From an uncultured Prevotellaceae bacterium (lineage in GTDB: Bacteria; Bacteroidota; Bacteroidia; Bacteroidales; Bacteroidaceae): a stretch of DNA of 56,091 nt. Below the pieces are notes generated by a model. It was not told the DNA's origin. It worked only from the letters and a program-made list of their open reading frames with translations, and made no database searches. Every line of letters starts with the position of its first letter. The stretch's first letter is position 1. The stretch lies in NCBI GenBank assembly GCA_902785695.1, contig CACZZQ010000017.1:1-56091 (forward strand), given 5' to 3'. This document shows positions 39,801-55,376 of the stretch, piece after piece. The position numbers and the translations under genes were made by a program.

Positions 39801-40319
39801 TTACTTGATGGTTATCCACACCGCCTCGCCTCGTTCCTTGGCCTCAACGATTTTCTGTTTCAGCCGGTGCAGCCAGATGCGAGAGTCAACCACTTGACCT
39901 ACGAGCTTGTTTTTGCCTACGAGAATGCAGCCAGCGGTGTCTTCGGCGGTGTTGCCAGCATGGATGCGGATGCCCTCGAAATTCGGCACGCCCAGTAAGA
40001 TGGGTAGCCACGCCTTCATCTTCGGACTCCATGAAATGACTACCGCGTAGCGACCTTCGGGGATGGCCGAGCGGCCTTTTATCTTGCGGCCACCGTGGGC
40101 GTAGTCGCGCCAAGTGGGTTCCAGTGTGTCGCAGAAATACAGACTCTCCCCCGTCCCCTCCCTGTGAGGGAGGGGCGTAGATAGTTCTTGTGCTGGATTC
40201 TGTGTTTGACTCTGACCACTCCCCTCCCTCACAGGGAGGGGTTGGGGGAGAGTCTTGATACTTAGTTTGCCAATGGTGTAGATCTTGCGCTTTGCTATTC
40301 TTGTCAATATCAGCTCCAT
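39801..40319 (-). CDS. DUF5675-family protein with palindromic-element insert
   Basis: 172 residues. The start MELILTRIAKRKIYTIGKLS and, after an interruption, YFCDTLEPTWRDY, AIPEGRYAVVISWSPKMKAW, PNFEGIRIHAGNTAEDTAGC and RIWLHRLKQKI match the DUF5675 family, small proteins found with Bacteroidota phage-like elements and thought related to cell-wall enzymes. Residues about 22-59 (for example TLPQPLPVREGSG and STPLPHREGTGES) are encoded by a 114-bp palindromic repeat inserted in frame, so the native protein would be about 134 residues. It lies downstream of the primase gene on the same strand. Confidence 0.75.
   Translation of the reverse strand: MELILTRIAKRKIYTIGKLSIKTLPQPLPVREGSGQSQTQNPAQELSTPLPHREGTGESLYFCDTLEPTWRDYAHGGRKIKGRSAIPEGRYAVVISWSPKMKAWLPILLGVPNFEGIRIHAGNTAEDTAGCILVGKNKLVGQVVDSRIWLHRLKQKIVEAKERGEAVWITIK
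40144..40257. repeat. 114-bp palindromic element inserted in frame in the DUF5675 gene
   Basis: The left arm starts CTCTCCCCCGTCCCCTCCCT (40144) and the right arm ends with the complement of CTCTCCCCCAACCCCTCCCT (40257). The arms are 32 bases long with two mismatches; each also holds a CCCTCCC/GGGAGGG hairpin. The length is a multiple of three, and the reading frame is kept. Confidence 0.85.
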
Positions 40320-40357
40320 AACTGAAATTTAATGTTTAATGTTTAATGTTTAATGTG

Positions 40358-40397
40358 CTTAATGTCACGATGTCACTTTGTCATTGTCACTTTTTGT
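40358..40397. repeat. TGTCAC-word repeat, left inverted copy
   Basis: Begins CTTAATGTCACGATGTCACT and ends TTGTCATTGTCACTTTTTGT. Apart from one extra base it is the exact reverse complement of 55621-55661. The copy covers the last codons and stop of the primase gene. A run of TTTAATG repeats (40329-40357) precedes it, and the same words recur, inverted, before the HU gene (55965-55984). Confidence 0.9.
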
Positions 40398-42792
40398 CTT
40401 GACACTTCGTGTCGACCTTGCTCCACAACTTCGAGTCCACCTTCTCCACCCAGCCGTCGCGGTTCCAGCGCGAGATGATTTTGATGATTGAGTTGCGAGG
40501 CACGTTGCTGCGCTTCAATGCCGCCAGATCATCAACCGTAAACGTGGGTGGCAACTGGTCGAAGATGCTGTTGTTCTTGCCATATCGCTGACACTCCGTC
40601 TCAGCATCCACATACTGATTCTGCAGGGCCACGCCAAACACCTTGATTTGCTGTTGCAGACAGTAGCTGGCCATCATCAGGGCAAACTCAATACAGGCTT
40701 TCGACTCATGGCTTCCCCTCTCTTTGGAGGGGACTGAGGGGAGGCTTAGCAGGTGGAAGATGACACCGCAACGGAAGCCGATGACCGCAGCACGACGGCG
40801 GTAGGTGTCCTTCACGTGGTCGATGTCCTTCAGTGCCGCCACGCGCTGCTCTTCCACCCACCCGTCGATAGCCTTGCGCAGTCGAGGGGTATCCACATAG
40901 CCGCTAAACGAGCGCAATCGTGTCACTGCCTCCTGAATCCTCGCCTCGTCCTCCACGGAACGACGCCCGTAACGAGGCATCTTGGCAAACGAGGTGTCGG
41001 GCATCTCAGCCAGTAGGATACGGCTCGAAAGACCGTTCTCTACATTGTCCGACTTGAAGCACTTCCTGACGGCCCCGCTGGTTCCGAGCATTGACCAGTT
41101 ATACGCCACTTTTACGACACCACTCTCAGCTTGGTCGCTGTTGTAATCCTGACCCCACTCCGAGTCAATCGGGTCGAAAGCCAGTCGGTAGATGTCGTAC
41201 TTCGACGACCACGAGCCGGCACCGTTGGTCTTGCGCAGCGTGTCCAGTTCCTCGCCAAAGCTGTACAAGGTGTGCCCGTTGGCATTCTTCAAGCGCTTCA
41301 ATAGCGTAGAACACGACACCGTCACGGGCACCACGCGAATCAATACCTTCGGGTCTTCGGGAGCCTTCTCGTTAGCCTTGCGACTCTTCTTGCGCTCCTT
41401 CCACTCGTCCTCACGCTTGCGAGCCAAGGCATCCTCCTCGTCGAACTGACGCTTCCAGATGTTCACGGCATGTTTACACACCGATTTTCCCGAGGCCTGT
41501 TCACCGTAGATAATCGACATCATGCCCAACTTCTGCATCTCGCCGTCACAATAGCGTACCTCCACCTGGTCGGCGTAGGCAGCCGCCAACGGCAACACCG
41601 AGCAGAGCACCGGCATGTGCATCGAGACAGGCACACCCGTGAGCGACTCCTTCAGACCTACAGGCAGGGCCTTTCTAAGTGAAGAATGAAGAGTGAAGAG
41701 TGAAGAATCGGGCTGCGCTGAGTCATCGAATTCAGGGTGAGCGGAAGCAAATTCTTCACTCTTCATTCTTAACTCTTCACTCTCTACAATTTGATCTATC
41801 AATCGCGAACCCTTAGTGGGCTCCTTGCAAGCTGAGTGGATGATACCCTTCATCTCCTGCGCTGACAGTCCGTAGCGAGGCATCACCTCCAGCAGCCACT
41901 CCTCCGAGTTATCACAAATAGCCCTGAGATTAGCCGCCAACTGATGCAGGCGCTTGTTGCGCTCACCCTCTGAGGGCTCACCACCCGTCCTACGCCAATA
42001 CTCAGCGATAATAGAGGTATAAGGAATGTCCTTGAACTGAGAAGGAAAGGCCCCCCCAAGCCCCTCCGAAGGAGGGGGTGTCTGGTTATCCCCTCCTTGG
42101 GAGGGGCTTGTGGAGGCTCCAAAATACGCCCCATCCTCCGTACGTCCATCGATGCTCAGACCTCTGTCCGTATATGCCTTGCGACGCTGAGCCACCTCTT
42201 CCTCAGAAAGCTGCTCATACCATCCGTCGGCACGATAAATCTCGTACTCCGCAGGCGTGATATAGATAAACCTCTCAGGAGTGAAGCATGACGTATCAGC
42301 CACGATGGTCACGCCGTCCGTACTCAGTGCCTTACAGTAGGCACGCTGCGCCTCGGGTACCGTCATGCCCAGCGGCAAGCGGATATCAATATGAAGCTTC
42401 TTGCGAGCCGAGTAGTCCTTGTGCAACATCATGCCCTGCCACTCGCCACCTATCTGTACATCCAGCTTCTCCGACATCCTATTGGCGTGTTCCACCAATT
42501 CGGGGTCGTCAATATCCACACACGTCTGCCAAGTAAACGACTCAGCATCTATATGCTCGCGGTCGCGATAGTTATCACGGAAGCGGCTGTAGTGCGGACA
42601 GCGGAAGGGTAGAAAACCCTTTAGCCGTCTTTGCTCCTCTTCGCATATTGTGCTGTTGTTGATGCGCTTAATCAGATTACCAACGCGCGCTTCACTTGCC
42701 ACGAAATCGTATTCTGAGAGCGGAACTTCCACAACATACGACCTCGGCTGCTCCTTGTTCTGACGCGGGTTGAGTGCTATTAGTCTTCCCAT
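40387..42792 (-). CDS. DUF3987-type primase/helicase of a mobile element, with three repeat-derived inserts
   Basis: 801 residues. The N-terminal part (about 1-225) includes FTWQTCVDIDDPELVEHANR and LHIDIRLPLGMTVPEAQRAY, similar to BT4734/primase-polymerase-like regions. The rest is a DUF3987-type ATPase with P-loop IIYGEQASGKSVCKHAVN near residue 425 and EELDTLRKTNGAGSW. A winged-helix-like end (FTVDDLAALKRSNVPRNSII) finishes it. It probably primes or unwinds DNA of an integrated element. Three low-complexity segments are encoded by palindromic repeats: about 226-248, 337-372 and 682-694. It overlaps the gene upstream by 13 bases. Confidence 0.75.
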   Translation of the reverse strand: MGRLIALNPRQNKEQPRSYVVEVPLSEYDFVASEARVGNLIKRINNSTICEEEQRRLKGFLPFRCPHYSRFRDNYRDREHIDAESFTWQTCVDIDDPELVEHANRMSEKLDVQIGGEWQGMMLHKDYSARKKLHIDIRLPLGMTVPEAQRAYCKALSTDGVTIVADTSCFTPERFIYITPAEYEIYRADGWYEQLSEEEVAQRRKAYTDRGLSIDGRTEDGAYFGASTSPSQGGDNQTPPPSEGLGGAFPSQFKDIPYTSIIAEYWRRTGGEPSEGERNKRLHQLAANLRAICDNSEEWLLEVMPRYGLSAQEMKGIIHSACKEPTKGSRLIDQIVESEELRMKSEEFASAHPEFDDSAQPDSSLFTLHSSLRKALPVGLKESLTGVPVSMHMPVLCSVLPLAAAYADQVEVRYCDGEMQKLGMMSIIYGEQASGKSVCKHAVNIWKRQFDEEDALARKREDEWKERKKSRKANEKAPEDPKVLIRVVPVTVSCSTLLKRLKNANGHTLYSFGEELDTLRKTNGAGSWSSKYDIYRLAFDPIDSEWGQDYNSDQAESGVVKVAYNWSMLGTSGAVRKCFKSDNVENGLSSRILLAEMPDTSFAKMPRYGRRSVEDEARIQEAVTRLRSFSGYVDTPRLRKAIDGWVEEQRVAALKDIDHVKDTYRRRAAVIGFRCGVIFHLLSLPSVPSKERGSHESKACIEFALMMASYCLQQQIKVFGVALQNQYVDAETECQRYGKNNSIFDQLPPTFTVDDLAALKRSNVPRNSIIKIISRWNRDGWVEKVDSKLWSKVDTKCQDKK
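40710..40747. repeat. Short palindromic insert 3 in the primase gene
   Basis: GGCTTCCCCTCTCTTTGGAG runs into GGGACTGAGGGGAGGCTT, so the ends pair (GCTTCCCCTC with GAGGGGAGGC, one mismatch). On the minus strand it encodes SLPSVPSKERGS. Confidence 0.6.
41676..41783. repeat. 108-bp palindromic insert 2 in the primase gene
   Basis: The left arm (41676-41708) is made of GTGAAGAATGAAGAGTGAAG words and the right arm (41751-41783) is its near complement. The minus strand encodes SEELRMKSEEF from one arm and SSLFTLHSSL from the other. The length is a multiple of three and the frame is kept. Confidence 0.8.
42050..42118. repeat. 69-bp palindromic insert 1 in the primase gene
   Basis: The left arm contains CCAAGCCCCTCCGAAGGAGG and the right arm CCTCCTTGGGAGGGGCTTGT, nearly complementary. 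The minus strand encodes STSPSQGG and TPPPSEGLGGAF. Length 69 is a multiple of three. Confidence 0.8.
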
Positions 42793-43678: not shown

Positions 43679-43770
43679 CATAAGCTGATAATCTGGGCAA
43701 ATCTGAGCGAATAATCTCAGATTATTTTCATCAGCGTAACACAACATCCTCAAAATCAGTACAAAACAAA

Positions 43771-43806
43771 AAGTGCCCGACTCTCAAAATCGAGAATCGA
43801 GCACTT
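43771..43806 (-). terminator. Terminator of the ATPase-nuclease operon
   Basis: AAGTGC-CGA-CTCTC pairs with GAGA-TCG-GCACTT across a short AT loop. On the minus strand it is followed by TTTTTGTTTTG. It lies 27 bases after the stop of the nuclease gene and separates it from the replication genes. Confidence 0.75.
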
Positions 43807-43832
43807 GTAAATTTCGCTCAGATTATGTCAGA

Positions 43833-44426
43833 TTACTTTTCTGGCTTTTCCCAATGGGTCTTTTCCGAGAAAAACAAACCGATATTGTTGTTTTCGTCAG
43901 CGAAACGAATCTGGTACTCCTGCTTGATAGCCCTACTTTTCGGGAAACGCTGTGACACCACCACATGACAACTCAGTGTTACGGCATCTTCAAACTGGAC
44001 GTCAACCTTCTGTAATCTATCCTTAAACACATGGATGGTTTCCTTCAACTGACTGGTAGCCTTATCAAATGTCTCACGCACCTGTTCGCTACTGTTCCCG
44101 TAAGCATTCGTCTTAAACTCAACGAAACGGAATTGTTTGTCATCAAACAAAGCACAATCACAAATACCACCTACGTGTTCCTTTATCAGTTTGTTGTCTA
44201 TCGAGAGTAAGACTATCTGCCTATTGTTTTCATTAATCACCATCAAGGCTTTCTGTTCATCGTCAGGATTGTTAGTGAATCGTGAAAACTTCTCTTCATC
44301 ATCGTCAATCACCATCAGTTCACTATCCATCCTCACTGTCCAACACTCATTGAACGGCTTGTAAGCCTCCGTAGCAAAAGCCTCGTCCAGTTTAATCCTG
44401 TCGATAGCCTGTTGATTTACTGCCAT
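43833..44426 (-). CDS. Putative PD-(D/E)XK nuclease partner of the ATPase
   Basis: 197 residues, no signal or membrane segment. The stretch GGICDCALFDDKQFRFVEFK (about 85-104) has the Asp ... Glu-x-Lys spacing of PD-(D/E)XK nucleases, followed by QVRETFDKATSQLKETIHVF, a helix of the right length. The start sits six bases after the stop of the AAA ATPase gene, and a terminator follows, so the two form a closed operon. ATPase plus small nuclease is a common defence layout (compare Septu or PARIS), but this partner does not look like HNH or TOPRIM. Function is inferred from motif and context. Confidence 0.55.
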   Translation of the reverse strand: MAVNQQAIDRIKLDEAFATEAYKPFNECWTVRMDSELMVIDDDEEKFSRFTNNPDDEQKALMVINENNRQIVLLSIDNKLIKEHVGGICDCALFDDKQFRFVEFKTNAYGNSSEQVRETFDKATSQLKETIHVFKDRLQKVDVQFEDAVTLSCHVVVSQRFPKSRAIKQEYQIRFADENNNIGLFFSEKTHWEKPEK

Positions 44427-44432
44427 AACCTG

Positions 44433-45503
44433 CTACTTCTTCTTAACCTGACGATAGAGATCATAGAGGCGGTCAAAGTCATCGCCAATCACCTCTGATA
44501 CAGAATCCAATTCATTTACCGACACCAGTCCAGTCTTCTCTGAAATCAGACTTTTGCAATACACCTCGCTATTGGGGTCGAGTGAATATACTGCTACATC
44601 GTCTGGATTCACAGTATAACCTGGTACGATAATCTTTTCAGCCTCTTCACGAACCTCGTCAATGTGGTGAAGCTTATATGCCAGCATCAGCACGTTCAGA
44701 CACGACAGCATATAGGGACTATGGGTTGTTAATACCACCTGCCTATCATCCTTTCCTGCCATACGCGATGAAATAAAGTTCAATATCTCACGCTGATTCT
44801 CTGGGAACAAGTTCTGTTCAGGTTCCTCGATAACAAATGAATTAAAGGCATCGGTCTTTATGGCATAATCTATAATAACCAACATGGGTATAGCAGACTG
44901 GAGTCCCGATGAAGAAACGCTTAGCGGCAACAGTTTATTCTTACCCTTCAAACTAATCATATTCCTGTTGTCCTGCTTCACGTAACTCACATCAAAGAAT
45001 GGAATATCATAGACAGGCAACTCCTTTGTGGCCCTCTCAAACTGACTCATGTAATTCAGCAGCAGCGAGGAAATAGGAATCTGCGCGCTCCACATCGAAG
45101 CGATAGCCTCAGACATATTACCTATCAGATTGCGCTCGGCAGGCACATAGAGGAAACGCTGTATATCTGCGGACTGATTGTCGCCCATTTCTACGAGGAA
45201 ATGCCCATCTTCGTAAGTCACCTTGCAGGGAATAGTCGTCTCATCGTATTTGAGTTCATAAAAAATAAAGCTATTCTCCTGCAGATAATCGTTAATCCCA
45301 TAGTCATGAAGACGTTTTGTATAATTCAACTTATCACGAACATCGGCCCATAGCGATTCTCTGCAAAACGTCAGCAACTTGGCTATTGTACTTTTTCCAC
45401 TACCCTGTGTGCCGATGAATAACGTCATAGGCCGGATAATGATATCCAGATTACTGATAGGTCCGAAATTGCGGACGGTCAACTTCTCATATACAATCCT
45501 CAT
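44433..45503 (-). CDS. AAA ATPase (OLD/SMC-like, AAA_15/AAA_21 type)
   Basis: 356 residues. Walker A GTQGSGKS is at 31-38, directly after FGPISNLDIIIRPMTLFI. A helical insertion follows, then SLKGKNKLLPLSVSSSGLQS, a signature-like segment, Walker B FVIEEPEQNLFP near 220, and the switch His in VLTTHSPYML near 257. There is no TOPRIM domain, unlike full OLD proteins. It has its own -7 box 24 bases upstream and a nuclease-like gene six bases downstream. Such ATPases act as sensors or motors in defence pairs; which trigger it recognises is unknown. Confidence 0.85.
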   Translation of the reverse strand: MRIVYEKLTVRNFGPISNLDIIIRPMTLFIGTQGSGKSTIAKLLTFCRESLWADVRDKLNYTKRLHDYGINDYLQENSFIFYELKYDETTIPCKVTYEDGHFLVEMGDNQSADIQRFLYVPAERNLIGNMSEAIASMWSAQIPISSLLLNYMSQFERATKELPVYDIPFFDVSYVKQDNRNMISLKGKNKLLPLSVSSSGLQSAIPMLVIIDYAIKTDAFNSFVIEEPEQNLFPENQREILNFISSRMAGKDDRQVVLTTHSPYMLSCLNVLMLAYKLHHIDEVREEAEKIIVPGYTVNPDDVAVYSLDPNSEVYCKSLISEKTGLVSVNELDSVSEVIGDDFDRLYDLYRQVKKK

Positions 45504-45527
45504 AACTCAAAAGTTTCTATTTTGGTG

Positions 45528-45535
45528 CAAATTTA
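45528..45535 (-). promoter_or_regulatory. -7 box for the ATPase-nuclease pair
   Basis: The minus strand reads TAAATTTGCA, 24 bases before the ATPase ATG. It suggests that the pair is transcribed independently of the genes upstream. Confidence 0.5.
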
Positions 45536-45575
45536 CGATTTTCTCTTCAATTATCTCCCATCTATCACCTTCTTT

Positions 45576-46574
45576 TTACGCTTTTTTATCCAACTTCGGA
45601 ACGTAAGCGTCCAATAATGGTATGATACTCTCAAAGTCTGGAGTCATCAAGCCCTTGTTGGGTCGCCCCTTATCTATATTGGTATATCCCTTGTCATCAC
45701 CAAAGAAATCCTTGTTCAGGGCCGGTGAACCTTTCAATCTGAACAGTTTCTTGTCGTCCAGATAGCCAACCATATTTTGCCACACTATCTTCACCCTGTC
45801 ACCGCGCCCGTTTTCCAACAGACGCCACAGGGTTTCCGACTGTTCCGCTTCATTGCCCGATAGCGGAGTCTCGCCCTTTCCTAAAATCGTTCGCAGCATC
45901 TGCTTCACGCTGTAGGCTATTTCATCATACTTCCAGTCACCTTTATCGACCAAAGTCAATAACTGGTTGTAGGTGTCCTGACGGTTAGGCGTCAGCGTAT
46001 TTTTTACTACTGTTTCCTTCTCTTGGGATGATATACAGTTGCTATAGTCAACATCAATACCATACTCCTCCGCATGTCCTAACAGAATGTCAGTAAAGAT
46101 ACATATCTTGTTGAGAATATCAAAGAAAGATTTTATTTCTCCCTCTCTGTCAGCATCATTGAATGGAATGTTGTTAGCAAACTTGCACCACCAGGAATCA
46201 TCATCCTTCATCTGATACCAGCGATGGGCAATCTTCATGCGCGCAAAAACCTTTATATGCTCCTCACGCTCTTCCTTCACCTCTTGAAGCAGAAACTCTT
46301 CTGTACACCCTTTGGCCCATTTTACTATTTCGTTCTTTGCTGATAAGTATGTCAGCGTGAGAGTCTGTGCGAAGCAGAGTACCACATCGTTGAATAGTTG
46401 CTGTCCCCATTTGGCATATGGTGAGGGCTGTTGGGCCGTATAGAATGCGATGAGTTCCTGCTGACATTGCTCACGAATATTCCCTAATGCAAACAAATGA
46501 TCTGCATTATTCAGCAAGCGGTCTACTCGTGCCTGCAAGAACGGAGAAATATCATTCTGTGTCATCATTACCAT
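45576..46574 (-). CDS. Hypothetical protein Z of the Fic-linked operon
   Basis: 332 residues, soluble, rich in Trp and aromatic residues. Helical in the first half (VVLCFAQTLTLTYLSAKNEI, HIKVFARMKIAHRWYQMKDD), then CKFANNIPFNDADREGEIKS, LWRLLENGRGDRVKIVWQNM and a well-ordered end (GSPALNKDFFGDDKGYTNID). No nuclease, ATPase or NTase motif is obvious. The ATG abuts the stop of gene Y. I do not recognise a family. Confidence 0.55.
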   Translation of the reverse strand: MVMMTQNDISPFLQARVDRLLNNADHLFALGNIREQCQQELIAFYTAQQPSPYAKWGQQLFNDVVLCFAQTLTLTYLSAKNEIVKWAKGCTEEFLLQEVKEEREEHIKVFARMKIAHRWYQMKDDDSWWCKFANNIPFNDADREGEIKSFFDILNKICIFTDILLGHAEEYGIDVDYSNCISSQEKETVVKNTLTPNRQDTYNQLLTLVDKGDWKYDEIAYSVKQMLRTILGKGETPLSGNEAEQSETLWRLLENGRGDRVKIVWQNMVGYLDDKKLFRLKGSPALNKDFFGDDKGYTNIDKGRPNKGLMTPDFESIIPLLDAYVPKLDKKA

Positions 46575-48832: not shown

Positions 48833-49164
48833 TTATTTTACAAATCCATTCTCGTCAACATCATCCTTTTTCAAATTAATAACCGGCTGGTCGCAAGTAA
48901 CAAACGGGATAGATGTCTCATTTCTTACAAAGATGTATCTGGTGTTTGGATTGCCAACTACGAGATTATACCCCAAATTTCAACAGGACTTAATTCGTAC
49001 ATCTTATAGAAGTAGCTTTCTTGTGCAACATCCATCAGGCTAATGTATTCGACCTTGTTTGCCTTGATAATATAAGTCCACACTTTTCTCTCCTCTGGGC
49101 TCAGTTTCCAAGGATTCAAATATTTCCGCCAGACATAATGTTGCTTTTTTGTATCTGTATTCAT
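48833..49164 (-). pseudogene. Internally deleted DUF4238 gene
   Basis: The first 66 residues (KQHYVWRKYLNPWKLSPEER) match the DUF4238 start KQHYVPxxYLxxF. After WG the frame stops, but another frame continues with GNPNTRYIFVRNETSIPFVT and CDQPVINLKKDDVDENGFVK, which is the typical SDNPV-type C-terminal part of the same family, and ends at 48833. About 150 residues of the usual length (about 270) are missing. This is a decayed gene of unknown function, often seen in defence regions. Confidence 0.7.
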
Positions 49165-50159
49165 TAATGAATAATCATCTGCTCTATTTCTTGCTTCGCT
49201 TTCTCCAATTGCAAACGTCCCTCTTGTTGTAAAGCTTTTGCTTTTTGACGGAGCTCTGCAACATGGTGAGCTATTTCTTTCTGTTTTTCTATTGGAGGGA
49301 GTGGTACATTGAAATTCTCCAATAAGTTTACTGATACTCTTTGTTGGCCTGCCGAGCCACCAAAATATAGCATTGCAGTTTTCCTGATAGCCTTCATGTG
49401 AAGAAGTGCTTGCAGATAATCAATGGAGAGTTGACTTGTTCGTGGACGTATTACGAAAAACTCTGTTGAACCACAGCCTAAGCCATTTGTCAGACCTCTT
49501 ACAACAACAGATTTGCCGTTCTGCATACACGGTGTTATCTTAGCCCAAAGCAGATCGCCATCCTGGAATCTTGTAAAACCAGACGATTCGCCTATTGTCT
49601 TTTCTGACATAGAAGCAATCTCTGAATAGCACTCGTCGATAACCTCCATAGGAATAAAAGAAATCGGCGTTTCTGCATCCTTACCCTTGAAAGACGTATT
49701 GGGATTTATCCAAGCACAACTTGATAGCTTGACATTATCGTATTTCTCAGAGACAAGTTTTATACCGTCTTTATATACGCTTGGATCAAGTCGCCCTTCC
49801 AATGAGCTTCTATTAATAATAAATTGCCTACTCTCCAAATCCGTTTTGATTTCTGGCAAAACAACATCTAACTCTTCCAGCAAATAAGAATCGATAGAAT
49901 CAATGAGCTGTTGAGATTCATTCTCTTTTTGTTTCTTTGAAGAAATAGCCTCGTCAATTTTTGAAAAATCAACGCCTTCTATGACGGGGATATTCTTAAG
50001 TGACGGATAATCCAATGCAGGTCTTGTTCCACCCGTAGAATGACGAGAAGCGACCTTTTCAACAATATCAAGGTTAAGGTAACGTGCAAGATACTTACTT
50101 AATTCTGGGTCACCTGTCTTTATCACCACCATATGCTGGTTAGTATTCCCTACAAATCC
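49164..50159 (-). pseudogene. 5'-truncated type I restriction specificity subunit (hsdS)
   Basis: About 330 residues remain. The frame begins inside target-recognition domain 1 (GFVGNTNQHMVVIK), continues with a central conserved helix (NIPVIEGVDFSKIDEAISSK), TRD 2 (FTRFQDGDLLWAKITPCMQN, GGSAGQQRVSVNLLENFNVP) and the C-terminal helix (LPPIEKQKEIAHHVAELRQK). The first about 130 residues are lost at a junction with an HNH gene. No hsdM or intact hsdR is in the window, so it cannot function alone. Confidence 0.8.
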
Positions 50160-50839
50160 TTGGGGTGCGCCTCCACGATGCACTCACTTCCGTACGCCTC
50201 GCCAATGCGTTCGCCCGTCACCTGACAACGGTAATCGTACAACCGTTTCAGGCTTTCACCAATCGAGCGGTCGAGCTGGCGCACGTGCTGCATCCTTAGT
50301 GATGTCTTGATACCGGTCTTCTTGTCCTCACGTGGCTCAAAAATCTCAAACGCCAGTTCGTCCTGCGCCTTTATCTCAGCCTCAACGGCCATCTCCTGAG
50401 CAGGCAGACATTCAAGTACGAAAGTGCCAGGAACAGGCGATGCCCACAATACTACCACATCAGACAATTCCTTTGGCAACACGATTTTTCTCCGTTGACC
50501 AACCCGTTCACGTTCAGCCGTTAGCCACTTATAAGCCTTCGAAAAAATCGCCTGCAAGTGTTTAGCTATTGGTGAGTTCTCCGAGTAGCGCACCTGTAGC
50601 AAGTCGGGGTGAGTAGGATATTTGCTGCGGTCGAAATCTATGTTGTTCATCCGCACCTGAAACACCTTTCCCTCCACCATCAGTTGAATGTCGCAACTCT
50701 CCCCATGATGCAACTCCCGCCCAAGGGCAGCATACGCTAGCGCATGAAACTCAGGAGGGATATGGAATCCCTGACGCAGCAACGACAAGTCAATGCTCCG
50801 TTTCAACAGGAAGATGTTAGAGAGTGCATTTGTATTCAT
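50150..50839 (-). pseudogene. 3'-truncated HNH endonuclease gene
   Basis: 229 codons. The frame runs through LKRLYDYRCQVTGERIGEAY into CIVEAHPKDL and stops. The HNH core normally continues EAHHI and a zinc-binding HxxH or CxxC part; it breaks off at the first His, exactly where hsdS sequence begins in another frame. The upstream part (LRQGFHIPPEFHALAYAALG, LWASPVPGTFVLECLPAQEM) is intact and resembles the N-terminal domain that accompanies such nucleases in this phylum. Confidence 0.65.
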
Positions 50840-50964: not shown

Positions 50965-52158
50965 TCATAACTTTATTCCCTTTGTTTCCTTGCGAACCCG
51001 TTCTATCTCGTTGATAATAAAGTTAACAAATCTCCTTGAATGGTTTTCTATTTCAAGCCAAAAGGCATCATTTAGCTCATAATCTTTATGCCAATTCCAT
51101 CCAATGTATCCATCATCAGAATTTTCAAAAACACCATTTAGCATTGCTATATTTTTCTTTGCAACTTTTTTATCTGGGTCACGCCAAACACCAGAAAAAA
51201 GTCCTCCTTTATCGCTTTCCATTGCCCACCAGCATTTCTCCCATTCTGGAATATCTACTTCAAGGTCAAAGTAATCATATTGGAAATCGTATGCTCGAAT
51301 ATGATAGCCTTTCTTTTCTAGTGTATTGCAGATTTTCTGCCTGCAGATGCCTTCTATTTTTTTATTCGCTGCAGAGCTGACTATTTCTTGCAATTTATCG
51401 ACATCTTCCCACGTGTCGAGAAGTTCTTTTAGACTATTGGCTTGAAGTTTATCCATAAGCTGCTTTTCTAAATAATTTTCAATTTCGATATCTTCTTCTC
51501 GTGCATCGAAGTATTCTTTCAGGAAATCGATATACAGAGTTATAGACGAAGACAACAATGGCTCGTTTCGTGTTTCCTCCAAATCCATAAGCGTATCAAG
51601 CCAAGGTATGATATCATCCTTGAAATTCATACAAATAAAGCGGCCATTGTTCTTGTTAGAGTATCCAAGATGTTTCTTTGCCTTGTCTGTCAAACTGATA
51701 TCAGAAACTTTTTTGTTGCCATCGAGAGTCAAATAGACAACGAAAATACTACGTCTAGGAATGCCAAGGTCTATAACATAGTCAATGTATCTTTCTATTT
51801 GTTCCTCTTGATCAGACGCTCCCCAGATTTTATTTTCTACAATGATGGCATACGACTTTTTTTCTTTAATCAACAGATCAATCCTGTTGTCCTGTTCATT
51901 GGTCAATTCGGGATTCTGGATGGAAATATCAATGGGACAATCAGCTATAGCTTTCAAGCGTTCGATAAAACTCTGCAAGACAGGGTATTGACCATTGTGA
52001 GAGTATTGCAGCAATCCGCGCAAAATACGTGAATTTGCGTTCTCATTGGCATGAAGCTCCCTTATGACATTGATTGAATATGGAAGAGCTGCCTTTTTAC
52101 TCTTATAGAGTTCATTCAGTTCTTTTGCAACCTTGATCAGTTTATCTTTGTCTGCCAT
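50965..52158 (-). CDS. PD-(D/E)XK nuclease superfamily protein (PDDEXK_4 type)
   Basis: 397 residues, soluble. The PDDEXK_4 pattern is clear: ENANSRILRGLLQYSHNGQY, then NRIDLLIKEKKSYAIIVENK with catalytic Asp and Glu-x-Lys (about 93-112), followed by DQEEQIERYIDYV (the Q-type helix). The second half (WEKCWWAMESDKGGLFSGVW, DDGYIGWNWHKDYELNDAFW) is a separate ordered domain. It starts eight bases after a small hypothetical gene, so the two are likely one unit. Proteins of this type are frequent in defence islands. Confidence 0.8.
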   Translation of the reverse strand: MADKDKLIKVAKELNELYKSKKAALPYSINVIRELHANENANSRILRGLLQYSHNGQYPVLQSFIERLKAIADCPIDISIQNPELTNEQDNRIDLLIKEKKSYAIIVENKIWGASDQEEQIERYIDYVIDLGIPRRSIFVVYLTLDGNKKVSDISLTDKAKKHLGYSNKNNGRFICMNFKDDIIPWLDTLMDLEETRNEPLLSSSITLYIDFLKEYFDAREEDIEIENYLEKQLMDKLQANSLKELLDTWEDVDKLQEIVSSAANKKIEGICRQKICNTLEKKGYHIRAYDFQYDYFDLEVDIPEWEKCWWAMESDKGGLFSGVWRDPDKKVAKKNIAMLNGVFENSDDGYIGWNWHKDYELNDAFWLEIENHSRRFVNFIINEIERVRKETKGIKL

Positions 52159-52166
52159 TTATCTGC

Positions 52167-52595
52167 TTATTTATGTTCTTTGCTTACGACATTAATGACG
52201 GCTTCTTTCCAATTCTCATCAAAATGATGGAGATTCTCAGGATCTGGATAATTATGGGCCCAGATAATCTCATTAAGAGTTCTAATGAAACGTTTGTATA
52301 TAGTAGTGTTTATCGCCAATATTTCCTCGTCCAATTCGACAACTTTCCATCCTTCTGGTGCAACAACACGTTTAGGCGTTATACTTATAGATTCAATAAA
52401 TGGACAAACACCAAGAATGTCAGAGAATGAAAACTCCAAACTTTGGTTATCTATTTCAAATGTAACGCCTTTCTCATCTATAAAGAATACATGCCCTCTA
52501 TAATCATCAGTCACATTCAGACTATAAGAGAAGGCAATCATTGAAATAGGCAGGTATGACTTATAGTTTTCCTTTGTTAACTTTGTCGTTTCCAT
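52167..52595 (-). CDS. Hypothetical protein paired with the PDDEXK_4 nuclease
   Basis: 142 residues, acidic, soluble (YLPISMIAFSYSLNVTDDYR, HVFFIDEKGVTFEIDNQSLE, VVELDEEILAINTTIYKRFI). It ends eight bases before the nuclease gene on the same strand. The small acidic product could be an immunity or regulatory partner, but no family is recognised. Confidence 0.55.
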   Translation of the reverse strand: METTKLTKENYKSYLPISMIAFSYSLNVTDDYRGHVFFIDEKGVTFEIDNQSLEFSFSDILGVCPFIESISITPKRVVAPEGWKVVELDEEILAINTTIYKRFIRTLNEIIWAHNYPDPENLHHFDENWKEAVINVVSKEHK

Positions 52596-52615
52596 ATTGT
52601 AATATTGGATTATCC

Positions 52616-52756
52616 TTACAAAACCGTTTCACATACATACTTCTCTATATCCACTTCAGGCAGTTTGCTTCCTTTCGACCTTACTTCGTTCATGAATGTC
52701 TTAACCTCATCGGTGGTCATCAGATGCTTACGCCATGCGTACCAGAGAAAGTCCAT
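52616..52756 (-). pseudogene. Short C-terminal gene fragment
   Basis: 46 codons in another frame than the HsdR_N fragment: MDFLWYAWRKHLMTTDEVKT, then FMNEVRSKGSKLPEVDIEKY and the stop. It looks like the end of an unrelated gene joined to the truncated restriction gene near 52750. The parent family is not recognised. Confidence 0.4.
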
Positions 52757-53028
52757 CGCGGTTCCAATTCTATATGTTCAGGTCTATATCCTTTCTCAAG
52801 CAAACGGCACACACATTCCAATACAACAAAATTCTCTTTTTTGTCAAAGTTACTTGTGGTTTTGTCATGCACTTTAAGCCCTTTGCCTTCTGGATATATT
52901 ATTTTCTTGTTGTCAAAGTCAACAGCAACAATACAAGTATCATAATCCCGCTTGTAATAATCGCCCATAGATTCTTTGACAAATCCAATTTCGGATAAAA
53001 CAGCTTTTAAGTTCTCTATCTGAATCAT
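52720..53028 (-). pseudogene. N-terminal fragment of a type I-like restriction/methylase gene (HsdR_N-type)
   Basis: From the ATG at 53028: MIQIENLKAVLSEIGFVKES, VDFDNKKIIYPEGKGLKVHD, VLECVCRLLEKGYRPEHIEL. This matches the HsdR_N-type start of Bacteroidota restriction-methylase proteins, which then continue into the nuclease core; here it breaks off after LEPRW. About 87 native residues remain of a protein normally several hundred long. Confidence 0.6.
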
Positions 53029-53044
53029 ATCTTCGGATTTTCGT

Positions 53045-54106
53045 TTATTTCTCGTCTTCTTCAATATAGTTCTCGAAACGGGCTTTTGCAATCTCCAGAG
53101 ACTTCTGAATCTGGTGCTGCAGGACTTCACGTGAAGGTAACTCTGTCATATATTGAGCCACCTTAATGCCAGCCTTGTCTAGTTGCAACAGTTCAATCTG
53201 TTCCTTGCTCCCCTCTGTGCATAGTAGCAATCCAAGGGGTGTCTCTTCTCCTGGTTCCATTTCGTTCTGCTCCAGCCAACGCAGATAGAGTTCCATCTGT
53301 CCCTTGTATTCTGCCTTGAATCGTCCTTTCTTCAGGTCAATGGCTATCAGGCGGTGCAGACGACGATGATAGAACAACAAATCAAGATAAAAGTCCTCAC
53401 CATCGATAATCATACGTTTCTGACGTGCTACAAAGCTGAAGCCGTTGCCCAACTCTATGATGAATTGTTCCAAATGAGCCACCAAGCAATCCTCAAGTGT
53501 CTTCTCGCTATAGAAGCCCTTCAAACCTGTAAACTCCAAGAAGTATGGGTTCTTGAATACGAGGTCGGGCGACATCACGTTATCATCGCGCAAAGTTGAG
53601 AGCTCTTTCTTGATAAATTCTTCGGGCTTGCCGCTGATGGCAGTGCGTTCGAAAAGCATACCGTCTATTTCCTTGCGAAGCCTGCGAACACTCCATCTTT
53701 CTGAGGCTGCGAGTGTCAGATAGAACTCGCGTTGAATATCATCATTGAGGGGTATCACTTCTACAAAATGAGACCATGACAATTGTCGTGACAGTGTCGC
53801 GATAATTTGTGATTCAGGGAAAAACAAAGCAAATTGCATCATTCTACGGATATTCTTCTCATCGAATCCCTTAATATTATAATTCTCTTGCAATTGTCGT
53901 GACACTGTCGCGACAATTTGTTTTCCATACTCAGCACGTTGATTGTCAAGCACTTCGCGATTGATGCGCTCACCTATATGCCAGTACATCATGGTCAGTT
54001 CATAATTGGCGGTAGCTGCCACATGACCACGTGCCTGCTCGATAATCTGTCGCAAGTCCTGTATCAGGGATTGCGTATTATATTGCTGTATCTTTTGAAT
54101 GTCCAT
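53045..54106 (-). CDS. YhcG/DUF1016 PD-(D/E)XK nuclease
   Basis: 353 residues. The DUF1016 N-terminal domain (about 1-150: YELTMMYWHIGERINREVLD, KNIRRMMQFALFFPESQI) is followed by the YhcG-type nuclease domain (about 175-330: GEDFYLDLLFYHRRLHRLIA, IDLKKGRFKAEYKGQMELYL) with Asp, Asp-x-Lys and the Tyr/Gln helix. Such proteins often accompany type I restriction loci, and remnants of one surround this gene. It appears full length. It is expected to be a DNA endonuclease or accessory factor. Confidence 0.9.
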   Translation of the reverse strand: MDIQKIQQYNTQSLIQDLRQIIEQARGHVAATANYELTMMYWHIGERINREVLDNQRAEYGKQIVATVSRQLQENYNIKGFDEKNIRRMMQFALFFPESQIIATLSRQLSWSHFVEVIPLNDDIQREFYLTLAASERWSVRRLRKEIDGMLFERTAISGKPEEFIKKELSTLRDDNVMSPDLVFKNPYFLEFTGLKGFYSEKTLEDCLVAHLEQFIIELGNGFSFVARQKRMIIDGEDFYLDLLFYHRRLHRLIAIDLKKGRFKAEYKGQMELYLRWLEQNEMEPGEETPLGLLLCTEGSKEQIELLQLDKAGIKVAQYMTELPSREVLQHQIQKSLEIAKARFENYIEEDEK

Positions 54107-54125
54107 ATCTCTCTCTTTATAATTC

Positions 54126-54400
54126 CTATTTCAGCAGGTTTAACAGTTCAACATAGTGGCCCTCGGAAATGCGCTCCTGCTCGAACAGCAGGCGGGCTTT
54201 CTCGCCAAAGTCGCCTATCACCACACCTTCGTTGCCTGGCTGATAGAGCGAGAGGTCGTAGCCGTATTCTGTGGCAATCTGCTGAATCTCCATGCTCTCG
54301 GCCAGATGATCCTGCAATTCCTCATCGGTAAACAGACGCAGGTGGCGCAAGCAATAGCAAAGCGACTGATGGCTGACACCGAACAACTGCTCCAGTTTTA
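54126..54400 (-). pseudogene. C-terminal remnant of an ImmA/IrrE-type peptidase gene
   Basis: About 92 codons remain: IKLEQLFGVSHQSLCYCLRH resembles the helix after the ImmA/IrrE catalytic domain (FGVSxxALxxRL), and LFEQERISEGHYVELLNLLK resembles the family end. The zinc motif HExxH is missing. The frame continues upstream only into unrelated sequence. Confidence 0.5.
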
Positions 54401-54411
54401 TCGATACTATC

Positions 54412-54516
54412 CTACGACCAAAGAGAATCGCAATCCAAGCGCATTGGCAATAAGCATAAACGTGCTGAGCTGCGAAGCACCTCAATCACTTGCTGCTCCT
54501 GCGTTACCTTCTTCAT
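54412..54516 (-). pseudogene. Fragments of small HTH genes
   Basis: One frame gives MKKVTQEQQVIEVLRS; another gives LSTFMLIANALGLRFSLVVG, which looks like the end of an XRE-type antitoxin (MxIAxALGLxxSL). They abut within 60 bases and then run into the ImmA-like remnant, so this is joined debris of a small regulatory pair. Confidence 0.35.
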
Positions 54517-54530
54517 TTGCAAAGAAGCGA

Positions 54531-55376
54531 TTACAATGCCTCTATTTCTTCAATAGAAAGGCCTGTATATTTGGAAATGAGTTCTGTAGGCATACCGTCT
54601 GATTTCATCTTGCTGGCAGCCTCAACGTTTGCTTCAGCCTTAGCCTCTTTCTTTGCTGTATTGATGGCATTGTTGATGTCACGATATGCCTTCACACTGT
54701 CCTCATAGCCACGACGTTCCTCTGGTGAGAATCGAGCTATCTCTGCCTGTTCAAATAGCTTAGTAAATACTCTTTCCTGCAAAGCTTTGGGGCGCTCGAA
54801 CAAACGCGACAGGTTACGAAGTACAAAGAGCCACTTATCGAACATCGTCTCAAGTTCATCCTCAGTTTTGTTGAACTTGGGCATTTCAAGGTAGATGTAA
54901 GTCAGCTTGTCGAAGAAAACTTTCTTCGTAGCAGTATCCATCAACTTTACTTCGTGGTGATAGCAGTCTTTGGAATACTCATCGTCTTTGAAAACAAAAT
55001 TCAGCACGCCAATGGTATAGACTTCCTTCAGGTTGAAGTCCCAATCATCGCCCACATTGCCTTGATCTTGTATCGGGAAAGTAGAGTAGAATACGCTACG
55101 GTCCTTGTAGTATTGCTGAGACACATTCTGCATCTCGACGATAAATTTGGAACCGTTCTCATCCTCACAATATACATCAAAGATTGCACGGCGGTTACCA
55201 TAGATACCCAAACGCTCCATCGGCAGGTAGCTGATATCCTTGATATTCTGATGTCCCATAAACAGGGCATTGAGGAAACTGATGAGCAAATCCTTGTTCA
55301 TCTCAGTACCGAACAACTTCTTGAAACCGAAGTCGGTGTACGGATTGATGTATCTCTCTTTTATATCCTGTGCCAT
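54531..55376 (-). CDS. Rpn/PDDEXK_2 family nuclease
   Basis: 281 residues. The start ERYINPYTDFGFKKLFGTEM, then RRAIFDVYCEDENGSKFIVE (catalytic Asp and Glu), MQNVSQQYYKDRSVFYSTF and LTYIYLEMPKFNKTEDELET are classic for the Rpn family. The C-terminus is a Lys/Ala-rich coiled part ending LISKYTGLSIEEIEAL. These proteins are often labelled transposases but are recombination-promoting nucleases; repeats in the family can be defence-linked. It has its own -7 box and is intact. Confidence 0.92.
   Translation of the reverse strand: MAQDIKERYINPYTDFGFKKLFGTEMNKDLLISFLNALFMGHQNIKDISYLPMERLGIYGNRRAIFDVYCEDENGSKFIVEMQNVSQQYYKDRSVFYSTFPIQDQGNVGDDWDFNLKEVYTIGVLNFVFKDDEYSKDCYHHEVKLMDTATKKVFFDKLTYIYLEMPKFNKTEDELETMFDKWLFVLRNLSRLFERPKALQERVFTKLFEQAEIARFSPEERRGYEDSVKAYRDINNAINTAKKEAKAEANVEAASKMKSDGMPTELISKYTGLSIEEIEAL

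Follow-up and report, generated by a model that had tools for sequence, protein, structure and literature searches.

A two-gene locus from an uncultured Prevotellaceae bacterium, which encodes a predicted ATPase and a small putative nuclease, raises the question of whether it is an undescribed defence system, as the original prediction proposed, or part of a system that already has a name. The window analysed here is the whole stretch of DNA, a single contig of 56,091 bases from a 2.48-Mb draft genome (78% completeness, 61 contigs). The two genes are as follows.

44433..45503, minus strand: gene A, OLD-type ABC ATPase of 356 residues, no TOPRIM; head, residues 1 to about 275; C-terminal extension, residues about 276-356 (open reading frame, Pfam, PADLOC, alignment)
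43833..44426, minus strand: gene B, putative PD-(D/E)XK-type nuclease of 197 residues; D90, E103-x-K105, Q126 (open reading frame, PADLOC, alignments, profile comparison)

An ABC ATPase and a putative nuclease in tandem

Gene A lies upstream of gene B on the same strand, with a gap of 6 bp between them (44427-44432). The description given in the original prediction, an ATPase without TOPRIM and a 197-residue Asp...Glu-x-Lys protein six bases apart, holds: both frames lie where it had placed them and the motifs are conserved. Gene A matches the Pfam families AAA_15 (1.4e-24) and AAA_21 and carries Walker A (K37), Arg124, an SSGLQ signature, an EEPE Walker B (E226-E227) and a THSPY H-loop (H261). 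Across eight aligned A sequences, the window counted, Walker A, SSGLQ, the EEPE-type Walker B and the THS of the H-loop are kept, and K37, R124, E226, E227 and H261 are invariant (8/8). The protein extends 95 residues beyond the H-loop histidine, and neither Pfam nor a further profile scan finds a TOPRIM family in it. Its matches among PDB sequences (13 sequences) are OLD, PtuA, retron and unnamed AAA ATPases together with one ABC transporter.

The assignment of gene B to the PD-(D/E)XK enzymes, which rests on motifs and profiles, is consistent with the conservation of its core. The D...ExK...Q pattern (D90, E103-F-K105, Q126) is invariant in 8/8 aligned sequences, and in a wider alignment (n=25; the window counted in both) E103, K105 and Q126 are present in 25/25 and D77, D90, N65 and F175 in at least 90%. 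A Pfam scan of gene B returned no family above chance, and a search of PDB sequences with the B profile gave no match at E up to 1. In the PHROGs scan the window protein matched nothing below E 0.029, the best value among the four relatives scanned being 0.0039.

Profiles place the pair in the WonAB / PDC-M29 family

Judged on E-values, bit scores and adjacency rather than on PADLOC's own score and coverage cut-offs, the best PADLOC models for both genes are those of a single candidate system, PDC-M29. Gene A matches PDC-M29A at 2.1e-50 (170 bits) and the adjacent gene B matches PDC-M29B at 4.7e-13 (47.6 bits). The window pair is divergent, whereas a canonical PDC-M29 pair, L066, reaches 619 and 226 bits. 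Profile-profile alignment (hhalign) of the window families against L066 and its kin gave 7.3e-12 for B and 5.5e-58 for A. Further models matched by gene A are AriA (95 bits), NsnB (71), PD-T4-4_A (65.5) and PtuA (37); for the ATPase of a Microcystis relative, PADLOC scores AriA at 198 vs 98 bits. The string PDC-M29 was not found in the literature searched, and the PDCs are described as still unvalidated in 2026 (PMC12988326) and as underexplored (PMC13356809).

PDC-M29 is a candidate system name only, and the experimentally tested relative is WonAB. Published in 2025, WonAB comes from a Vibrio cholerae prophage and was tested in V. cholerae and E. coli; its operon has two genes, one for an OLD-type ABC ATPase and one for a PD-(D/E)xK nuclease (PMC12137116). 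As reported there, defence requires both genes and both active sites and acts as abortive infection via a translation stop; when WonB is overproduced, translation is blocked while the genomic DNA stays intact; WonB is non-toxic without WonA, and its toxicity requires the WonA ATPase (PMC12137116). RNA cutting by WonB is its authors' suggestion, and they put WonAB near PD-T4-4 and the 'OLD-ABC ATPase + Novel REase' operon of Krishnan et al. (PMC12137116). A 2026 paper also describes OLD-ABC ATPases paired with PD-(D/E)XK nucleases (PMC12839542).

To relate our families to WonAB we used an A-profile search of viral contigs, which yielded 13 loci, nine of them (L101-L109) with an ATPase of ~430 residues and a nuclease of ~140 residues, whole or in part. 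Three of the four printed wonA/wonB qPCR primers, read in the best open frame, score highest in this group, while primer wonB_F does not favour it. The peptides compare as PQANGK (Walker A) vs PQAKGK in L101, PRYSWE vs PRYGWE and CDWILS vs CDWLLV. The nuclease lysine is K71 in WonB and K67-71 in the group, compared with K88-109 in canonical PDC-M29 and K83-116 in the window family. The ATPase residues K34, R182, E300 and H333 of WonA compare with K33, R175-183, E292-305 and H327-338 in the group, numbers that alone are not decisive, since two members of the window family, L005 and L011, come near too; the equivalent of WonA R182 in gene A is R124. From the primers and the nuclease residue number we infer that L101-L109 are WonAB-like, and we use the label in this sense.

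The window B family aligns with the WonB-like nucleases at 3.9e-11, and five other PD-(D/E)XK control sets, each made up of one to three sequences, gave 0.0043-0.75 (hhalign); between the WonB-like group and one of these control sets there is also a weak link (4e-5). The window A family aligns with the WonA-like ATPases at 2e-50, to column 389-391 of 398. Against both PDC-M29A and the WonA-like set the alignment runs to column 389 of 398, whereas against three other OLD-like ATPase sets it stops just past the H-loop, at columns 306-313; the C-terminal extension is therefore aligned only inside the family. In a quick ATPase tree, with long outgroup branches, one branch (SH-aLRT 92) separates the window, PDC-M29 and WonA-like proteins from nine other ATPases, and in the same tree the window clade is closer to PDC-M29 than to the WonAB-like proteins.

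By these profile comparisons, the window pair is a divergent Bacteroidales member of the known WonAB / PDC-M29 family. The term 'undescribed' is not borne out, because both genes belong to a named system: they match the PDC-M29 models and are profile-homologous to the WonAB-like group, to which the proposed profile search of the small protein also leads. The result links WonAB to the PADLOC candidate PDC-M29, which gains an experimental precedent. The family, whose tested member known to us is proteobacterial, also gains a branch from gut/rumen Bacteroidales.

As a separate observation, three gammaproteobacterial ATPases (L089, L091, L099) carry an SAERTG or SAERxG motif and are followed by a different PD-(D/E)XK-like protein, which has weak profile similarity to the WonB-like group (4e-5).

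Comparison with named systems

With WonAB the window pair shares the gene order, ATPase then nuclease, the C-terminal extension of the ATPase and the small size and PD-(D/E)XK type of the nuclease; by profile, both proteins are homologous to the WonAB-like group. It differs in that B has 197 residues and WonB about 140, so that the target of B may differ from that of WonB, and in that the stretch from the Walker A lysine to the conserved arginine is ~60 residues shorter in A (K37-R124 vs K34-R182). It also comes from another phylum and another site, and is known from sequence alone. The 'OLD-ABC ATPase + Novel REase' operon (Krishnan et al. 2020), compared here by description only, has the same architecture and is said to cover all detected WonAB homologues (PMC12137116).

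The other named systems resemble the pair in their ATPase and part from it in their effector. PD-T4-4 likewise combines an OLD-like ATPase with a nuclease, and PARIS and Septu have related ABC ATPase subunits; in PADLOC, however, gene B has no match at E up to 1 to PD-T4-4_B, to AriB, the PARIS effector, which is described as a TOPRIM protein, or to PtuB, the HNH effector of Septu. The parallel with Septu and PARIS drawn in the original prediction, with an effector of a different kind, is thus upheld. In OLD and Gabija the TOPRIM nuclease is fused to the ATPase, unlike in gene A.

Pairing and distribution

A is directly upstream of B in 44 of the 45 B-profile loci of a one-genome-per-species collection, and the 45th, L032, begins at a contig end. 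The same arrangement is seen in 19/19 further loci of a phylum sample, with A split into two overlapping frames in L059. These counts, which the original prediction had asked for, indicate a pairing beyond chance. Other neighbouring genes vary among loci, so the core consists of two genes.

Relatives of B are present in 19/395 genomes of the phylum sample and in 10/301 family genomes, our own counted in both; the latter figure makes the distribution patchy. At the nine other family-sample loci A adjoins B in seven, whose genomes recur in the 45-locus set; L009 is cut by a contig end and L012 is a fused remnant. The closest B relatives are 82-98% identical and come from genomes titled Prevotella or Bacteroidales. 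The 45-locus set is nearly all titled Bacteroidota, the exceptions being Microcystis (L054), a Succinivibrio MAG (L051), a Eubacteriaceae MAG (L032) and one 'uncultured bacterium'. In a Gammaproteobacteria sample the B profile matched 3/369 genomes, namely the starting genome and two weak matches. Searches of phages and plasmids with the window B or its close profile found no relatives; a canonical-type B query found none in phages and one match in a Persicobacter plasmid.

Two loci have unusual layouts. The remnant in L012 (1251-1647) is degenerate, with the 5' end of A beside the 3' end of B, and L034 (3-5588) holds two A-B pairs with other genes in between, the first copy being cut by the start of the locus.

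The pair is cargo at a site that also occurs empty

The signals and borders around the two genes are given below.

45528..45535, minus strand: -7 box TAAATTTG, Bacteroidota type, before gene A (similar position in 7/7 upstream regions)
43771..43806, minus strand: terminator hairpin, 16 pairs followed by the T-rich tail TTTGTTTTGT, 3' of B (hairpin common to L128 and L129)
43845..45602, minus strand: cargo interval of 1758 bp, pair plus promoter (missing in the congeneric L128 and L129)
45576..46574, minus strand: left flank, 332-residue protein with a conserved C-terminal part of ~140 residues and a variable N-terminal part (locus comparisons)

The motif TAnnTTTG, which we take to be a -7 box of the Bacteroidota type, begins 31-36 bases before the start of A in 7/7 upstream regions examined (the window, L013, L014, L015, L018, L022 and L023; eight further loci were skipped), and its background in the window is 0.039 per 100 nt and strand. 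This agrees with the promoter originally proposed for the pair. In two genomes of the same genus (L128 and L129), the gene matching 45576-46574 ends in ...LLDAYCPEK and is directly followed by the sequence that comes after B in the window, so that the pair and its promoter form a cargo of 1,758 bp. The terminator, which had also been credited to the pair, is present as a hairpin, but it stands in these two loci without the pair as well and thus belongs to the site.

The 332-residue flank protein has no Pfam family, only one sub-threshold match, and it has matches in 10/149 other genomes of the genus. Its N-terminal parts are exchangeable. A relative of it stands beside the pair in seven loci (close kin, the window counted) and is missing in most others. 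As its relatives also occur without the pair and flank it only in these seven close-kin loci, the gene was rejected as a third component. One relative, in L014, contains a HIRAN domain.

Natural chimeras join one head to another effector

The comparison of the window with its close relatives adds one further feature.

43756..44690, minus strand: exchanged module, comprising B and the C-terminal extension of A (trees; informative sites relative to L023 and to L018 or L013)

DNA identities were computed in 60-base steps. Compared with L023, a Prevotellaceae MAG, the window shows 98-100% identity along A to residue ~258, 95% in the step containing the switch and 52-73% through the rest of A and B; after B it returns to 97-98% over 120 bases, and farther on identity is mostly 83% or less (one step 85%). 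For L013 and L018 the reverse is seen, with 42-80% in the head and 78-100% in the C-terminal extension and B. Put together, the head of the window ATPase shares 99-100% DNA identity with one relative, and its C-terminal extension and nuclease share about 84-99% with others. Informative sites in 44,679-43,791 are L018-like in 286 cases and L023-like in 13, compared with 24 and 360 before the module and 36 and 97 after it. The left breakpoint falls between 44,690 and 44,679, at A residues 272-275, eleven to fourteen residues past the H-loop histidine, and the right one between 43,791 and 43,756, at the terminator.

The opposite combination is found in L020. Its head is 91-95% identical to L013/L018, while L022/L023 come closest for the end of its extension and for the initial two thirds of B (71-79%; last third of B 57-60%), and its switch falls inside the C-terminal extension. 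The window, L022 and L023 thus have head type I and L013, L018 and L020 head type II; the window, L013 and L018 have effector type 1 and L020, L022 and L023 effector type 2. All four combinations of head and effector exist on these assignments, with head type I and effector type 1 joined in the window alone.

Trees of the two parts conflict with each other in the same way. The head tree joins the window with L022 and L023 (100/100) and L013 with L018 and L020 (99/98), and the tail-plus-B tree joins L020 with L022 and L023 (100/100) and the window with L013, L014 and L018 (87/96, not starred). Among four AU tests, whose groups were named after the identities had been seen, three reject the exchanged grouping (p 9e-5, 5e-34 and 6e-6); the fourth, which places the window with L013, L018 and L014 on head data, does not reject it (p 0.067, log-likelihood 661 lower).

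A second case, independent of that of the window, occurs in the canonical PDC-M29 clade. Identity of L062 to L071 is 0.92-1.00 from residue 60 to ~400 of the open reading frame and then 0.60-0.92, and identity to L066 is 0.67-0.87 at residues 100-340 and 0.90-1.00 from ~340 through B. The H-loop histidine of L062 is at ~387, and its downstream flank is L066-like.

We also compared the coupling of tail and head to B by partial distance correlation. On all 58 loci (from 66 with both genes, after five incomplete ones and three without the search motif were dropped) the values are 0.694 for tail/B and 0.553 for head/B; in the Bacteroidales set they are 0.645 and 0.705 and do not separate the two couplings, so the module reading rests on the mapped breakpoints. 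Tail and B identities are discordant in eleven locus pairs: seven involve L048, in which the end of the reading frame looks frameshifted, and in the other four, viewed in finer steps, the change lies inside the extension.

Part of this pattern might come from assembly, if two strains had been joined at a conserved stretch of a draft genome. The incompleteness of the genome and its many contigs would allow for this, and across 398 genomes of the genus the exact junction of the window is not seen a second time and hence rests on one draft genome. We nevertheless consider an artefact improbable. The window is back to the L023 type just after B, so that two joins within 1 kb would be needed, and the switches of L020 relative to L013/L018 and of L062 relative to L071/L066 are seen without the window, although most of these genomes may be drafts too.

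The simplest reading of the chimeras would be that extension and nuclease form a cognate unit, although the conserved DNA that surrounds the H-loop could by itself promote crossing-over at this point, with no selection involved. We lean towards the view that the evolutionary unit is not the gene: the extension and the nuclease would form one cassette that passes between divergent heads, the join lying at or shortly behind the H-loop, and that recombines freely in at least two distant clades, with the extension as the cognate docking surface. If cassettes and heads recombine freely, one crossover can re-wire the specificity of defence. As far as the literature searched shows, this module exchange is new. 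Comparison with the relatives points to sensor heads and killing parts that move between strains as modules of their own. The chimeras are ready-made domain swaps, for which we predict that the head sets the trigger and the extension plus nuclease set the outcome, and the head swaps bear directly on what ABC-ATPase sensors of this kind detect.

Proposed mechanism and alternatives

What the sequences show directly is the two genes with their motifs and tight pairing, their profile-based family membership, the filled and the empty site, and the chimeras. Dimerisation, docking, abortive infection and translation as the target we infer from WonAB. We regard it as highly probable, taken as a whole, that the pair is a divergent WonAB / PDC-M29 member which would work as follows. 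Gene A would encode an ABC ATPase that forms a dimer, detects some sign of phage infection with its head and docks the nuclease B on its C-terminal extension. Infection would change the state of the ATPase and license B to cut, its target most likely being RNA needed for translation, which would probably make B an RNase. The stop in translation would then halt the growth of the cell, and phage would not be released. Extension and B would be inherited largely as one effector unit, which recombination can join to different heads; this co-inheritance would lend indirect support to a docking of B on the dimerised extensions.

PD-(D/E)XK enzymes are mostly DNases, and the sole other PADLOC match of B besides PDC-M29B, a weak one to Cas4 (E 8.8e-4), also supports an abortive system of the same family, likewise triggered by the ATPase, in which B cuts DNA of the phage or the host chromosome and not RNA. 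We hold this to be unlikely, given the intact genomic DNA and blocked translation reported on WonB overproduction (PMC12137116) and the homology of the B core to the WonB-like group. Two linked genes, with the A extension and B mostly inherited together, would also suit a plain toxin-antitoxin pair in which A neutralises B and no phage is sensed. To our knowledge, however, a full ABC ATPase with conserved motifs is unlike known antitoxins. WonB is reported as toxic only with WonA and its ATPase, the opposite of a simple antitoxin (PMC12137116), and a toxin-antitoxin pair is thus very unlikely. A housekeeping ATPase-nuclease of DNA repair or the cell cycle (compare the archaeal OLD-family Cran1) might be considered as well, as OLD-family enzymes need not be defence genes (PMC12796447), but the patchy presence of the pair (10/301 family genomes), its place as cargo at a site also found empty, the defence-type neighbours and the two copies in L034 make this extremely unlikely. 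The reading that we retain is that of a WonAB / PDC-M29 pair in which the ATPase would trigger an RNA-cutting nuclease.

Neighbouring genes

The surroundings are of the defence type, as had been predicted: PADLOC and Pfam identify in the window a Fic gene (PDC-S04/SoFic), a type I specificity subunit, PDC-S26 and DUF1016/YhcG (PDC-S02, 406 bits). On the minus strand, 50965-55376 holds a PD-(D/E)XK cluster composed of PDDEXK_4 (PDC-S26), YhcG/DUF1016 (PDC-S02) and a PDDEXK_2 transposase-family protein. Two overlapping frames at 49164-50839 (minus strand) encode a 229-residue protein, which has no Pfam match and whose end looks HNH-like by eye, and a seemingly truncated type I specificity subunit; the stretch 48977-50095 has 99.7% DNA identity with L023. 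Next to the site, 39801-42792 (minus strand) contains a DUF5675 gene and a gene with a sub-threshold DUF3987 match, of which a second copy, 25% identical, occurs in the same genome.
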